Positions 12,375-21,151 of a DNA stretch of 21,151 nt are shown here, piece after piece; the first letter of the stretch is position 1, and each line of letters begins with the position of its first letter. Source of the stretch: a virus; IMG/VR virus record IMGVR_UViG_3300001472_000181, positions 1-21,151 of that record. The stretch is one strand, 5' to 3'. The notes below the pieces were generated by a model that did no database searches, was not told the DNA's origin, and worked only from the letters and a program-made list of their open reading frames with translations. The position numbers and the translations under genes were made by a program.

Positions 12375-13217
12375 CTATTCTGTACAGAGCTGTACTCTAG
12401 CTCCATCGCCATCAATTAAAACTGAACCCATGCTTAACATAGAAGTAACAAGGTGTGCTACTTTTTCAGGAATGTAATTCAATTCAGTTCTCACATCAGT
12501 ACCAACACCTAAACCACAAGATGACTTATGCCATGCTAGAGTTTTTCTGTCGTTACCAGTTTTAGTTAAACCAGAGTGAGTAAAGATTAAGAATCCCATC
12601 CATCTTTTAGCAGTTTGTTCTCCACTTAAAAATGGAAGATCAGCTGGACCAACATATTCTTGATTAGAAAATTGATCAACTGCTAATAGTTCTCCATATT
12701 GGGTTGGACCTAATGCCCAGTATCTTTGGTTGTCATCAGGAACATCATTGTTTCCGAAAACAGTTTGCATGTTTTGAGCTTTAATCAAAGTCATGCCAGT
12801 TGCAGAAGCTGTACCACCAAATGAAACATTTGCCGCTATAGAAGTTGCAGCAGTAATAATATCAATAATAATTGAGTCAGTCTTTCTACCTAATGCATAA
12901 GCTGCATTTTTAGCAAGAATCCCTCTTTCGTCGATATTAGTTTTAAGCTCATCCAGTTTATCAACATAATCAGCTGCATAAAAGTCGCTTAAAGAAGCAG
13001 ACACATTACTGTGTGCGCTGTTCATAGCTACTACTTCAGCATGTCTTGCTTTTGTAGTTGCAGAACCTTTAGCTAGTTTTTGAAAAGTAACTGTTGAACC
13101 AGTAACTCCATTAATATTTCTAACTAAATTCTTCATTTTTGACCCCATGCGTTGATATGCCATGTGGACTTCAGCTTCAAATTGCGTAATAAATGCGTTA
13201 GTTATTGAACTAGCCAT
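12375..13217 (-). CDS. Major capsid protein
   Basis: 280 residues. The N-terminus 'SITNAFITQFEAEVHMAYQRMGSKMKNLVR', then 'GSTVTFQKLAKGSATTKARHAEV', 'SDFYAADYVDKLDELKTNIDERGILAKNAAYALGRKTDSIIIDII' and a late 'KVAHLVTSMLSMGSVLIDGDGARVQL' match the phage capsid family seen in marine podoviruses and other small phages (HK97-fold by family, not seen directly). It lies right after scaffold and a small peptidase-like gene. The base composition is less AT-rich than the neighbours, in keeping with high expression. AAAGGAT lies about 7 bases before the ATG. A 132-base leader with a promoter-like motif and a hairpin precedes it. Confidence 0.95.
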   Translation of the reverse strand: MASSITNAFITQFEAEVHMAYQRMGSKMKNLVRNINGVTGSTVTFQKLAKGSATTKARHAEVVAMNSAHSNVSASLSDFYAADYVDKLDELKTNIDERGILAKNAAYALGRKTDSIIIDIITAATSIAANVSFGGTASATGMTLIKAQNMQTVFGNNDVPDDNQRYWALGPTQYGELLAVDQFSNQEYVGPADLPFLSGEQTAKRWMGFLIFTHSGLTKTGNDRKTLAWHKSSCGLGVGTDVRTELNYIPEKVAHLVTSMLSMGSVLIDGDGARVQLCTE

Positions 13218-13324: not shown

Positions 13325-13358
13325 TCTATCTCATAAAATTTATTTTAATTCAACGCAC
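13325..13358 (-). promoter_or_regulatory. Promoter-like motif TGTGCGTTGAAT ... GATAGAAT ahead of the capsid gene
   Basis: One of four copies of TGTGCRTTGAA on the coding strand. TTGAAT (13353-13348) is followed after 17 bases by GATAGA (13330-13325). The copy shares TAAGAATGTGCRTTGAA with the one at 20802 and the downstream block TATGARATAGARTW with the one at 17348. It overlaps the stop codon of the peptidase-like gene and lies about 100 bases ahead of the capsid ATG. Confidence 0.6.
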
Positions 13359-13718
13359 ATTCTTAAGTTTTTCAACTAATATTTTTAAAAGTATAGGGTT
13401 TTCTTTAAGTGTTGCTACTAAACCATTAGAAAGTGCATTGATAACTACTTCTTCTTTATTTTCTTCATCTAAAGGTTGTCCTGATTGTGTTAAATTATAA
13501 TAGTATGCTATTGCATGAAGTACCTCATGTATTAAAGTACATGAATAATCTAAATTAGATAAATCCTCCTGAATCGTAATAGAATTTTTCCTATGATCAA
13601 ATTCGCCATATGAATCAGAAGGTTTAGAAAATGTTGCTTTATCTTTTTCTACAAGAACATCTTGATAACTTATTTTAAGATTAAATTTTTGCTGGAGTAG
13701 TTCCGTATTTTTTTTCAT
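13350..13718 (-). CDS. Small HExxH zinc-peptidase-like protein in the capsid module
   Basis: 122 residues. HEVLH at residues 64-68 is a classic HExxH zinc-binding motif, within 'CTLIHEVLHAIAYYY'. A glutamate about 21-22 residues later (Glu89 or Glu90, in 'NKEEVVINALSNGL') is placed to be the third ligand of a minimal gluzincin, as in SprT/ImmA-like phage peptidases. A segment 'YGEFDHRKNSITI' before it also fits that fold. It lies between scaffold (38-base overlap) and capsid, so it could process scaffold, capsid or a host protein; this is inference. No standard prohead protease is visible in the window. Confidence 0.8.
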   Translation of the reverse strand: MKKNTELLQQKFNLKISYQDVLVEKDKATFSKPSDSYGEFDHRKNSITIQEDLSNLDYSCTLIHEVLHAIAYYYNLTQSGQPLDEENKEEVVINALSNGLVATLKENPILLKILVEKLKNVR

Positions 13719-17095: not shown

Positions 17096-17310
17096 TAATT
17101 CATTTCTCCATCAGAATAAAAACCAGCACCACCAGCTTTAGTAAACAAAGAACGACTACCAACGAGTCCTCTTTCCCTTCTTCTTTTTTGTCTTTTTTCT
17201 TCTGCTTTTTTCTTAGCTAATTCTTTTTCTTCAGCTTCTCTTTTCTCTTTCATCTGTTTTTCTAATTCAGGATCAGGAGGAGGTGGCTTTGGAGCTCTAA
17301 ATATTCCCAT
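17095..17310 (-). CDS. Small proline- and lysine-rich protein upstream of the portal
   Basis: 71 residues. It begins MGIFRAPKPPPPDPELEKQ, continues as a highly charged helix (KREAEEKELAKKKAEEKRQKRRRERG) and ends with a glycine-rich GLVGSRSLFTKAGGAGFYS tail. Proteins with this three-part build (proline run, charged helix, 'RRSLL/RSLF..g..G.gf' tail) lie near the portal in many marine phages; function unknown to me. The ATG lies only about 10 bases after the ATAG block of a promoter-like motif. Confidence 0.75.
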   Translation of the reverse strand: MGIFRAPKPPPPDPELEKQMKEKREAEEKELAKKKAEEKRQKRRRERGLVGSRSLFTKAGGAGFYSDGEMN

Positions 17311-17312
17311 AA

Positions 17313-17732
17313 TTATAACTCTATTTCATAGAATTTTTGTTTTTTCAACGCACAAAAGAGTTGATATGGTGTAAATATCCAAAAATATGTCATACCTAAC
17401 AATCTCTGTACATAACTAACACATGAATGTTCTTTAATCCAAGAACTAAATAATCTTGGTAATCCTAACTTTACATCTTCTCTCATAGTTCCTTTGAGAA
17501 CTTTTCCTTTAACTTTTTTAATAAACCTAAAAATAGCATCAACATCTTTACCTTCTAATATCTCCACATTATACTTACCATAAATAAACTCTTGCATAAC
17601 CCATATATCTTTTTCAACACAGTAGCCAATAGCTCCACAATGTTTGTATCCTTTTTTAAAAAAACGAATAGACTTATTGTGTCCACTTGCTTCATAAAAA
17701 TATACTAACCACTCTTTCTGAGGAAATCCCAT
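17313..17732 (-). CDS. Possible permuted papain-like (NlpC/YiiX-type) phage protein
   Basis: 139 residues. His31-Cys32 in 'GYKHCGAIGYCVEKDIWVMQE' and a later Cys104 in 'EHSCVSYVQRLLGM' recall small phage proteins of the circularly permuted papain-like fold, where a His early and a Cys in 'C(V)..(V/A)(K/Q)..LG' later form the active pair. This is a pattern match and not a firm family call. If right, it could cut a peptide or amide bond, for example in cell wall peptide, and serve in lysis or entry. It overlaps the terminase gene by 28 bases. The gene end contains a copy of the TGTGCRTTGAA motif, so the last codons double as a regulatory site. Confidence 0.6.
   Translation of the reverse strand: MGFPQKEWLVYFYEASGHNKSIRFFKKGYKHCGAIGYCVEKDIWVMQEFIYGKYNVEILEGKDVDAIFRFIKKVKGKVLKGTMREDVKLGLPRLFSSWIKEHSCVSYVQRLLGMTYFWIFTPYQLFCALKKQKFYEIEL
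17320..17353 (-). promoter_or_regulatory. Promoter-like motif TGTGCGTTGAAA ... AATAGAGT ahead of the portal gene group
   Basis: Coding-strand copy of TGTGCRTTGAA. TTGAAA (17348-17343) is followed after 17 bases by AATAGA (17325-17320). It lies within the last codons of the papain-like gene. From position 15 onward it matches the capsid copy nearly base for base. A start site downstream would give a very short leader before the ATG at 17310, which is unusual and counts somewhat against a normal promoter. Confidence 0.5.
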
Positions 17733-19249: not shown

Positions 19250-19529
19250 TCATATCTTCAGCGACTTTAGGACCAAGAGCTTCTATTAATTTATCTGCTT
19301 CTTTATCAGTAACCATATGAGTTGGATAATGTTTAAAGTGTACTGCTTTAACTACTTTCCTCAATCTTCTTCTGTCTTGTAGGCTTATATCGAAATGTCT
19401 GTTTTGGGAATTTGGCTTTAATGTGTCCAGTTTGCCACCCACTGTTCCGTATTTTTCTTTTAATTTCTTTAGGTCTAGCTCTTGTTGTGTGAGCTTCTTC
19501 TCCTTCGGTTTGTTCTGGTCTAATGTCAT
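19215..19529 (-). CDS. Unknown protein between the resolvase-like and terminase genes
   Basis: 104 residues, ATG start. The N-terminal third is charged (KPKEKKLTQQELDLKKLKEKYG). The C-terminal half, 'DISLQDRRRLRKVVKAVHFKHYPTHMVTDKEADKLIEALGPKVAEDMI', looks like a folded helical domain. The first 60 residues share DNA with the end of the resolvase-like gene in another frame of the same strand (182 bases), and its end overlaps the terminase start by 35 bases. Position directly before terL would suit a packaging partner, but a small terminase-like sequence already lies further upstream. I do not recognise a family. Confidence 0.7.
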   Translation of the reverse strand: MTLDQNKPKEKKLTQQELDLKKLKEKYGTVGGKLDTLKPNSQNRHFDISLQDRRRLRKVVKAVHFKHYPTHMVTDKEADKLIEALGPKVAEDMIAKYIQLGDID

Positions 19530-19830
19530 GTAAATACTGTTTGTATAACTCCCAATCCATGACTACCATAGGGGAAGTTCTATCTCTTTTCAATATTAAA
19601 ATATCAGAGTTACCTTTCCATCTTTCTAATTGAGTAAATCCTTCGCCATTTTTACGAGCTTTAACTTCTATATTTGTTCCCTCATGCAAATCTTTTACAA
19701 TTACATCATGAGGAAAACCAACAATAGCTCCTGACATTGGCTGTCTGTAAGCATCATAACCCTCTTTCTTATAGAGAGCTACTATTTCATTTTCTATTCT
19801 AGTACCTTTTACCTTTGCTTTGCTTGACAA
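19348..19830 (-). CDS. Holliday-junction-resolvase-like (Hjc/PD-(D/E)xK) nuclease
   Basis: 160 residues. 'KGTRIENEIVALYKKEGYDAYRQPMSG' followed by 'GFPHDVIV' and 'TNIEVKARK' gives the order of the archaeal Hjc-type fold: Glu13, then R-Q-P-x-S-G, then Asp42, then Glu55-x-Lys57. The nuclease domain fits residues 8-100. The basic tail after that is encoded in DNA shared with the next gene. It likely cuts branched DNA, clearing junctions before or during packaging. The start is TTG, supported by a strong GGAGG five bases upstream; no ATG lies near. It overlaps the 39-residue gene upstream by 32 bases. Confidence 0.85.
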   Translation of the reverse strand: MSSKAKVKGTRIENEIVALYKKEGYDAYRQPMSGAIVGFPHDVIVKDLHEGTNIEVKARKNGEGFTQLERWKGNSDILILKRDRTSPMVVMDWELYKQYLHDIRPEQTEGEEAHTTRARPKEIKRKIRNSGWQTGHIKAKFPKQTFRYKPTRQKKIEESS

Positions 19831-19918: not shown

Positions 19919-20093
19919 TGGCAACTCCTTTCAGTTGATCTTTCATATTAAAATTTTCTGCTCTTAATTCTACTCTATCTCCATAAGCTTTTTCTAACTT
20001 AGTGATTAGAACCTTATTAATATCTTTAACATCTTTTATTTCGTCTTTTAATAATTGCACATCTTGCATAAGAGCATCTATAGTCATTTTCAT
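19911..20093 (-). CDS. Small coiled-coil protein, function unknown
   Basis: 60 residues, with AAAAGGAA upstream of the ATG at 20093 (a second ATG lies two codons on). It shows heptad-like hydrophobic spacing over most of its length (IDALMQDVQLLKDEIKDVKDINKVLITKLEKAY), so a coiled coil is likely. No other motif is visible. It is the first gene after the promoter-like motif at 20129-20162 and begins the run that leads to the resolvase-like and terminase genes. Confidence 0.7.
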   Translation of the reverse strand: MKMTIDALMQDVQLLKDEIKDVKDINKVLITKLEKAYGDRVELRAENFNMKDQLKGVANA

Positions 20094-20128: not shown

Positions 20129-20162
20129 ACTATAAAAGAATTAAAAATTTTTTTCAATGCAC
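20129..20162 (-). promoter_or_regulatory. Promoter: TGTGCATTGAAA, 17 bases, TATAGT
   Basis: This is the best sigma-70-like copy of the recurrent motif. On the coding strand TTGAAA (20157-20152) and TATAGT (20134-20129) are separated by exactly 17 bases, which contain A7 and T5 runs. It lies in a 72-base gap between the 79-residue gene and the coiled-coil gene, with about 30 bases of leader left before the ATG. Confidence 0.7.
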
Positions 20163-20165
20163 AGA

Positions 20166-20405
20166 TTAACAATCCCATGCTCTAAGTGATTTAGATAATC
20201 TATCTTGACCAGTATTGTTACTAGGTTTTTGTCTTTTTCTCATGCCTTTCATTCTAGCACAAAAAGACTTTCTTCTTTTACTTCCTTTTTTCTTTGTAGG
20301 AGCTTTTAAGTTACCACCAGTTTCACGATTGTAACTAGCTCTACCTTTGGCATTTAATCCACCTTTAGGATTCTTGCCTTCTTTTCGTTGCCAGGCAGCA
20401 GTCAT
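20166..20405 (-). CDS. Small basic phage protein (DUF6321-like)
   Basis: 79 residues. It opens MTAAWQRKEGKNPKGGLNAKGRASYNRETG, a strongly conserved signature in phage proteins that I recall as DUF6321, followed by 'LKAPTKKKGSKRRKSFCARMKGM', which is also part of the pattern, and a polar C-terminus. Two cysteines (Cys49 in SFCARM and the final residue) are present, but no clear zinc site is visible. It is very basic, so it may bind DNA. The start overlaps the stop of the 48-residue gene by one base (TAATG). Confidence 0.85.
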   Translation of the reverse strand: MTAAWQRKEGKNPKGGLNAKGRASYNRETGGNLKAPTKKKGSKRRKSFCARMKGMRKRQKPSNNTGQDRLSKSLRAWDC

Positions 20406-20551
20406 TATTTATTTTTCTTAGGTTTCTTATGAGTTAATACTTTAGAATTTTTTGTATGTTTAGCTCCACTATGTAATGACCCATTAGGCATTTTATGTGT
20501 TTTGCCTTTAAAGAGTTTTCCATCTTTTGTATAATGAGGTACTCCTTTCAT
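20405..20551 (-). CDS. 48-residue small basic phage protein
   Basis: Read directly from the sequence: ATG at 20551, stop TAA at 20407-20405. The protein starts MKGVPHYTKDGKLFKGKTHK and continues MPNGSLHSGAKHTKNSKVL. The pattern 'Y.kdGk...G.tHkMpnGslh.G..Ht..S..L' recurs in small phage proteins near terminase genes (from memory). One-base TAATG overlaps on both sides show it is translated together with its neighbours. It has histidines at regular positions (6, 19, 27, 32, 41), which might allow metal binding, but that is speculation. Confidence 0.8.
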   Translation of the reverse strand: MKGVPHYTKDGKLFKGKTHKMPNGSLHSGAKHTKNSKVLTHKKPKKNK

Positions 20552-20688
20552 TACTTCTTTTTCTTTTTAGGAAAACCAGCCTTCATATTGGCATAAGATT
20601 TAGCTGACACAGTAGATTTAGATTTTGGTCTACTTGTTCCAGCTTTGCGTCTAGCATTTATATTTGCGTATAATCCTTTTTTAGCCAT
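20551..20688 (-). CDS. 45-residue small basic phage protein
   Basis: Read directly from the sequence: ATG at 20688, stop TAA at 20553-20551. It starts MAKKGLYANINARRKAGTSR and ends YANMKAGFPKKKKK. The 'MAKKGLYANI(N/H)A(R/K)R(K/E)' opening is widespread among phages of diverse hosts, usually in this neighbourhood; the function is unknown to me. GGATTGAG lies shortly before the ATG. It is the first gene after the inverted-repeat-rich non-coding region, so it heads the transcription unit. Confidence 0.85.
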   Translation of the reverse strand: MAKKGLYANINARRKAGTSRPKSKSTVSAKSYANMKAGFPKKKKK

Positions 20689-20717
20689 TATCTATCATAC
20701 TCAATCCTTTTTATCTG

Positions 20718-20765
20718 CCTAGTACTAGGAGCTATCGATCTTAACCAGATCAGAGCTACTTAAGT
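20718..20765. repeat. Adjacent palindromes and a hairpin in the leader of the small-gene operon
   Basis: CCTAGTACTAGG (20718-20729) is a perfect 12-base palindrome. It is followed directly by a hairpin in which AGCT (20730-20733) pairs with AGCT (20754-20757) and GATCT (20737-20741) with AGATC (20747-20751). Then comes the palindrome ACTTAAGT (20758-20765). All three abut without spacing. Confidence 0.7.
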
Positions 20766-20776
20766 CAGACTTTTAC

Positions 20777-20807
20777 TTTATACGAAGTAAATATATTTTC
20801 AATGCAC
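20777..20807 (-). promoter_or_regulatory. Promoter-like motif TGTGCATTGAAA ... TATAAA with overlapping operator-like inverted repeat
   Basis: Coding-strand copy of TGTGCRTTGAA, ahead of the small-gene operon. TATAAA (20782-20777) lies only 14 bases from TTGAAA (20802-20797), a poor spacing for sigma-70. The downstream element is covered by the inverted repeat TTTACTT-(6)-AAGTAAA (20772-20791), which could be a repressor site. The leader to the ATG at 20688 would be about 80 bases. Confidence 0.5.
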
Positions 20808-20826
20808 ATTCTTATGTGCTTTTTTT
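20804..20826 (+). terminator. Intrinsic-terminator-shaped hairpin on the plus strand
   Basis: GCACAT, TCTT loop, ATGTGC (20804-20819), then seven T (20820-20826). It has the form of a rho-independent terminator for rightward transcription, although the stem is short and half A-T. All genes read leftward, so it would stop antisense transcripts. In the leftward direction the T run becomes a leading A run and termination is not expected. One arm of the stem is the TGTGC of the recurrent motif. Confidence 0.45.
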
Positions 20827-20843
20827 CCACTCTATTGCGTGTA

Positions 20844-20883
20844 GGGGTTCACACAGTAGTTATACGTTGTGTTTTTAAACCCC
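20844..20883. repeat. Long imperfect inverted repeat downstream of the partial terminase-like gene
   Basis: On the plus strand GGGGTT (20844-20849) pairs with AACCCC (20878-20883), and ACACA inside it can pair with TGTGT near the other arm. On the coding strand this lies shortly after the stop codon of the partial gene, and could act as a transcript end structure. A run of C (CCCACCCCC) next to it is unusual for this AT-rich sequence. Confidence 0.55.
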
Positions 20884-20921
20884 ACCCCCTCGTAGTACAG
20901 CAACTATTCTATCTCGTTTTC

Positions 20922-21151
20922 CTAACTGAGATCAATCGATACCTTCAGGTTTCCATCGACTTGATGTTGTACTCGTTCAGGTGCTCGTAGACCTACTCTA
21001 TCTAGTATATCTCTACTCGCTTCTAGTTGGACATACTCGCTTCGTGCATTATCAGATAGTTCCACTAACTTACGACTAGCTGTTACTGCACCTAATCCAA
21101 TGGTATTAGCTATCTGTCGTTTCATATAGTCTTGTACCTTTGGGATGCGTA
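20922..21151 (-). CDS. C-terminal part of a probable terminase small subunit (partial, runs off the right edge)
   Basis: The frame is open from the window edge to a TGA at 20922-20924, so the ATG at 21125 is probably internal. It is preceded in frame by a segment reading RIPKVQDY. The sequence 'ASRKLVELSDNARSEYVQLEASRDILDRVGLRAPERV' followed by 'NLKVSIDLS' is typical of the C-terminal end of phage small terminase subunits ('..vrl.Aa.diLDR.G...pe.v..', then a short beta strand), which recognise the packaging site and recruit the large subunit. About 45% GC by local counts, clearly higher than the rest of the window. A different DNA-binding or packaging protein with a similar tail remains possible. 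Confidence 0.65.
   Translation of the reverse strand, partial: RIPKVQDYMKRQIANTIGLGAVTASRKLVELSDNARSEYVQLEASRDILDRVGLRAPERVQHQVDGNLKVSIDLS

Follow-up and report, generated by a model that had tools for sequence, protein, structure and literature searches.

The non-coding gap at 20689-20921, between the small-terminase gene terS and a small gene that starts at 20688, is probably a compound control region in which a genome-packaging site is followed by a late promoter with a hairpin leader. Its three modules, a two-part site, a promoter-like motif and a 5' leader, all lie on the minus strand (Table 1). The two-part site is conserved and linked exclusively to terS, whereas most of the inverted repeats that first drew attention to the gap are not its conserved signal.

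The window, meaning the whole stretch of 21,151 nt that was analysed, covers positions 1-21151 of a virus record 24,356 bases long (G000). Its genes resemble those of the cultured pelagiphage Hodr, with large terminases 65% identical, and the source record is a Hodr-like marine pelagiphage. The late genes run on the minus strand in the order terS, small genes, terL, portal, capsid and tail. To the right of terS lie a non-coding stretch and then plus-strand genes. An earlier sequence-only reading had described the gene bordering the gap as small-terminase-like, and profile searches bear this out: its product matches Pfam PF03592 (Terminase_2) at 39.5 bits against a cut-off of 26.1, and also phrog_51/2538. 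A PDB sequence search with the small terminase returned 7joq and 6w7t, both small terminases, and the closest solved small terminases are those of NV1 and PaP3. The large terminase belongs to phrog_2, whereas that of HK97 belongs to phrog_9.

Several features of the records were observed alongside. Undetermined bases (N) lie inside terS at record positions 21152-21156 (L082:5153-5157), just beyond the window edge, and leave a few terS residues undefined. In contigs G002:C1:26515-26855 and G003:C1:4597-4900, terS is split over two frames, the result of either a frameshift or a faulty assembly. Between terS and terL, at 19348-19830, a RusA/Hjc-like Holliday junction resolvase (phrog_244) is encoded. 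The locus tags of the Hodr record (L083, OQ414635) read EXVC032PBaldr, a likely labelling slip.

Table 1. Positions of the features of the gap and its surroundings, in window numbering.
Feature	Position	Strand	Description
terS, whole gene	20922-21299	-	ORF; window holds 3' part 20922..21151
Block 1, G-tract then A-run	20871..20891	-	GAGGGGGTGGGGTTTAAAAAC
Spacer, variable sequence, near-constant length	20843..20870	-	30-32 nt, A-run to block 2 core
Block 2	20819..20842	-	ACACGCAATAGAGTGGAAAAAAAG; A-tract 20820-20826
Predicted terminase cut	20836..20838		42-44 nt after G-run end at 20880; inferred from HK97, D3 and LincolnB right ends
Promoter-like motif, copy 1	20799..20808	-	TGTGCATTGA, includes -35-like TTGAAA; upstream of small gene
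-10-like TAAAGT	20775..20780	-	spacer 16 from TTGAAA; weak consensus; best box for copy 1
Promoter-like motif, copy 2	20154..20163	-	upstream of gene at 20093
Promoter-like motif, copy 3	17345..17354	-	inside 3' end of gene 17313-17732, upstream of gene at 17310
Promoter-like motif, copy 4	13350..13359	-	upstream of major capsid gene (12375-13217, PF19821)
Structured 5' leader, 58 nt	20713..20770	-	GUCUGACUUAAGUAGCUCUGAUCUGGUUAAGAUCGAUAGCUCCUAGUACUAGGCAGAU; predicted start ~20767-20770
Basic small gene, 45 aa	20551..20688	-	phrog_25774 match; first gene of presumed transcript
Inverted repeat 1	20718-20729		CCTAGTACTAGG; perfect, 12 bp
Inverted repeat 2	20730-20757		AGCT..GATCT-loop-AGATC..AGCT; imperfect
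Inverted repeat 3	20758-20765		ACTTAAGT
Inverted repeat 4	20772-20791		TTTACTT/AAGTAAA
Inverted repeat 5	20804-20819		GCACAT/ATGTGC, then T7 on + strand
Inverted repeat 6	20844-20883		GGGGTTcacac/gtgtttttAAACCCC
Terminator-like hairpin and T7	20804..20826	+	GCACATTCTTATGTGC; partly retained in close relatives, absent from L026 and L050

To delimit the conserved part of the gap, 50 non-redundant relatives were compared. Block 1 shows a mean pairwise identity of 80% and block 2, compared at a fixed offset, 47%, against 30% for the spacer and 28% for the sequence beyond block 2. The consensus of block 2 is ACAcACAtTA...AAAAAAg, and its motif appears at the matching offset in 1.1% of shuffled sequences. 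Block 1 precedes the block 2 core by ~38 nt, and the distance from A-run to core is 30, 31 or 32 nt in 7, 25 and 8 of 40 sites; it also falls at 30-32 nt in all 47 unique training sites. As judged from these comparisons, conservation in the packaging part lies in the linear sequence of the two blocks and in the distance between them.

The site is present in one copy per locus and follows terS in relatives whose terS is 45 to 99% identical. Scanning 2.9 million viral contigs with the site pattern yielded at least 110 newly parsed copies; among the matches listed, every copy with enough flank (106 of 106) lies 2-121 nt after a terS gene, and the contigs carrying the other 4 of the 110 begin 49-116 nt before the site. 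The same pattern in 257 Gb of cellular genomes matched 12 stretches, 0 of them near a terminase gene; these were rejected as real sites, being chance matches inside genes, four of them from one archaeal locus. This exclusive linkage, together with the rarity in cellular genomes, indicates that the signal is real and tied to terS. In the 30-kb genome of Hodr, the site is the top-scoring place in a weight-matrix scan (19.7, against at most 16.2 in shuffles). Block 2 is kept in L025 and L027, where it overlaps the start of the next gene, so that it is more than just a 3' untranslated region.

The two-part site is absent from the terminase relatives BcepC6B and Mx8, and from MEP301. Cronobacter phage Ss1 and the Vibrio phages VA-RY-3 and PVA7 have sites of similar appearance on the upstream side of terS, with a spacing ~5-6 nt shorter. 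In a weight-matrix scan of these three genomes the top plus-strand place coincides with the visually similar site, at scores not above those of shuffles, so that these sites rest on their mutual resemblance only. In the PVA7 record (L189, PQ582223) the large terminase and portal are annotated as many short pieces, which suggests many indel errors.

A conserved sequence, found once per locus and tied to the terminase genes, has the profile of a recognition site, and the two-part site is quite likely a genome-packaging site, cos-like or pac. The sequence-only reading had offered a pac or cos site as one possible function of the gap. This survives as the best reading of the left half (~20819-20891), on the strength of conservation and geometry rather than mapped ends, but contig ends do not pile up there.

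The geometry was derived by comparison with phage genome ends. The right end of HK97 reads GGGGGGGGGATCAAATCTTCAAAACC...CCGCCGCCAAA, followed by the cut. With the record end taken as the physical end for every compared phage except HK97, a G-run ends 35-44 nt before the cut at six independent 3'-cos right ends, those of HK97, D3, phiC31, Shambre1, LincolnB and Mcklovin (42 nt from G-run end to right end in HK97, 44 nt in both D3 and LincolnB); the right ends of PSA, Sfi21 and Gudmit carry no G-run at that distance on that strand. Six of the 9 G-runs in the last 200 nt of the right ends fall within the 10-nt interval 35-44, with a p of 1e-6 that is nominal because the interval was picked after seeing the data, and with actinophage examples that are GC-rich. 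Applied to the window, this distance places the predicted cut inside block 2, with the G-tract ~40 nt before it, a regularity derived here and not a literature definition. The A-tract would then lie at ~+10 to +18 from the cut; the HK97 small terminase binds at +15 to +29 after the cut, at an A-tract (PMC11331095).

The arrangement is like the 3'-cos of HK97 and HK022 in its G-tract, which there ends 42 nt before the cut, in its orientation toward terL and, for the A-tract as a candidate counterpart, in the A/T-tract small-terminase site just after the cut. It differs in that terS lies downstream of the site in those phages and upstream here, in the different large-terminase family, in that no HNH gene was found, and in that the ends here are predicted ones. 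HNH genes (PF01844) are common beside such cos sites; none was detected in G000, Hodr or eight other relatives, with HK97 positive as the control. In Pseudomonas phage D3 and Paenibacillus phage LincolnB, the cos sites carry GGGGTGGGGCGGGTCAAAACC and GGGAGGGGGAGGTTCAAAAATG ~44 nt before the end, closely like block 1, but block 2 is not recognisable in them and the terS of D3 is downstream. PaP3, whose cos has a 5' overhang of 20 nt, has a related small terminase (phrog_51/2538 in common); no G-tract site was found at its ends or near its terS. Given the phrog_2 large terminase, the lack of an HNH gene and the lack of a contig-end pile-up, the site is called cos-like and not filed as an HK97-type cos. 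On this analysis, the chance that it is a cos-like packaging site is about even. Within open-licence papers, no report of Hodr ends or of a G-tract upstream of cos was found. A broader proposal, tentative and somewhat less likely than even, is that cos sites in general share a cis-element, a G-tract ~42 nt ahead of the cut, across large-terminase families and from HK97 and actinophages to marine pelagiphages, and that the cos of the present marine group has moved between terS and terL, the late operon then needing its own promoter and leader.

The same site could instead be a pac, from which headful packaging would start with imprecise first cuts, giving circularly permuted genomes that have no cohesive ends. 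Near-complete relatives do break at differing, unrelated positions, and Hodr was assembled as a circle. Among 59 whole contigs, from unspecified source libraries, 1 ends within 100 nt of the site on the upstream side and 3 on the downstream side, and of the 21 contigs having the right half, 0 start at the predicted cut; contig-end clustering was rejected as proof of ends, since the ends scatter. The missing pile-up, weak evidence given such libraries, fits a pac and is also compatible with cos, because the cells from which IMG/VR contigs come may have contained concatemers. Myxococcus phage Mx9, in the sister group of Mx8, was called pac by PhageTerm (PMC10281127), and the large terminase of Mx8 is related to the one here, but Mx8 itself does not have the site. 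The geometry, moreover, fits the cut sites of fixed-end phages, and PaP3, whose small terminase is related, is a cos phage. A pac is considered unlikely, though not negligible. The suggestion that the gap marks a terminal-repeat boundary found no support: relatives break at differing places, and the single exact terminal repeat among 10 near-complete contigs (127 bp) lies at an unrelated place, 25.7 kb upstream of terL, so that direct terminal repeats at the site were rejected.

The second module is the motif TGTGCRTTGA. The window has 4 copies of it, against 0.07 expected, and each is on the minus (late-gene) strand; in the terL-oriented loci of 80 relatives, 85 copies lie on the late strand and 1 on the opposite strand. 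A motif repeated upstream of late genes and on their strand is what a late promoter would be, and TGTGCRTTGA is very probably a promoter. The best -10-like box at 15-19 nt scores 2.5 on average against 1.5 in shuffled sequences (maximum of 500: 2.26), with no single sharp spacing. A TGTGC box joined to TTGAAA resembles activated phage promoters. The order TTGAAA, 16 to 19 nt, TA..GT, with the TGTGC box upstream, is that of sigma-70-type promoters with an activator box, from which it departs in the weak -10 found here. Copy 3 lies in the last codons of its host gene and is itself retained in distant relatives, together with the peptide CALKK/CALIK, and the DNA signal there seems to constrain the protein.

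Proximity of the two-part site to this motif, just upstream of it in the window and in many relatives, would also suit a transcriptional or mRNA signal belonging to the terS transcript (an activator, antitermination or 3' processing signal) that feeds the late promoter. Such a role is very improbable: the site stands without a nearby motif in L025 and L142, three further copies of the motif in the window have no such site beside them, and cognate-looking sites lie upstream of terS in Ss1 and VA-RY-3. An origin of replication at which a G-rich transcript acts as primer (an R-loop, like ColE1 or mitochondrial CSBII) deserves even less credence, for although the G-run followed by an A-run on the transcribed-sense strand, in one copy per locus, is reminiscent of those systems, an origin does not predict the exclusive terS linkage or the 31-nt spacing to block 2.

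The third module, the leader, is nearly invariant in 20 distinct sequences. In its common fold the 5' end pairs with the 3' end; support for base pairing comes from one compensatory pair, C-G to U-A, in one clade, and from a paired change that keeps ACTTAAGT/ACTATAGT palindromic. Other relatives have different hairpins at the leader position. Occurrences of the leader elsewhere were discounted, as its 17-base core matches unrelated viral contigs by chance and the full element is found only after terS. The leader is likely a 5' untranslated RNA. The sequence-only reading had also offered a regulated leader; for the right half of the gap (20713-20808), a promoter followed by a structured leader is well supported.

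Homology ends directly after the leader; the small genes joined on at that point are unrelated, and relatives have different genes in the position of the 45-aa gene. The stretch from the leader to a DUF6321 gene (20166-20405) carries small genes that are swapped among near-identical phages (window 20402-20710; L001, L102, L107). The break falls just after the CAGA of the leader, a cassette-like variable spot.

All six inverted repeats counted in the sequence-only reading are present at the coordinates it gave. The gap is also more structured than dinucleotide shuffles, against which folding of 20690-20921 gave z -4.6 for DNA (0/200 shuffles), z -3.9 for the plus-strand RNA (0/200) and z -2.5 for the minus-strand RNA (2/200). 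Comparison of the stems across relatives gave a divided answer: the leader hairpins are almost invariant, but the larger hairpins are not conserved, repeats 4 and 6 being present in the closest relatives only. Hairpins were ruled out as the packaging signal because the two largest are not conserved; in these alignments, inverted repeats are mostly not the conserved signal of the gap. The plus-strand terminator-like hairpin may be a side effect of block 2 and the promoter motif. No tRNA or tmRNA was found in the gap, and no Rfam family matched it at E up to 1. The gap itself is real, but it is the longest only within the window: a longer non-coding stretch lies just outside, upstream of terS, at record ~21300-21642 (L082:5301-5643). 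That stretch separates terS from the divergent plus-strand genes, contains long imperfect inverted repeats (TTCGCTCCATTTCGGTCAACTTCGTTGATAAGTGGCAAAGCCACT) and is probably a divergent promoter region.

On the packaging reading, the small terminase would recognise 20819-20891, probably through the block 2 A-tract, and the terminase would cut near 20836-20838, ~42 nt past the G-tract, as in 3'-cos phages, which would leave cohesive ends. Packaging would begin in the direction of the small genes and terL, so that terS would come to lie at the opposite end of the virion chromosome. Just past the packaging site, the late promoter (TGTGC and TTGAAA-16-TAAAGT) would restart transcription. The first part of the transcript would fold into a compact hairpin leader in which the 5' end is hidden and which probably stabilises the mRNA or tunes its translation.

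Hardly any packaging sites are known for marine phages, since most of these phages are metagenome contigs that have no mapped ends. The signature described here predicts a candidate site and cut to within a few bases in more than 100 uncultured phages. That HK97, D3 and Gram-positive phages have the G-tract in common suggests a packaging element unremarked in the open-licence papers searched. It is also unusual for such a site to stand between terS and terL. If the cos proposal is true, an abundant marine group would carry its terminase genes at opposite ends of the virion chromosome, and the promoter and leader of its late operon would lie a short way in from the left end.
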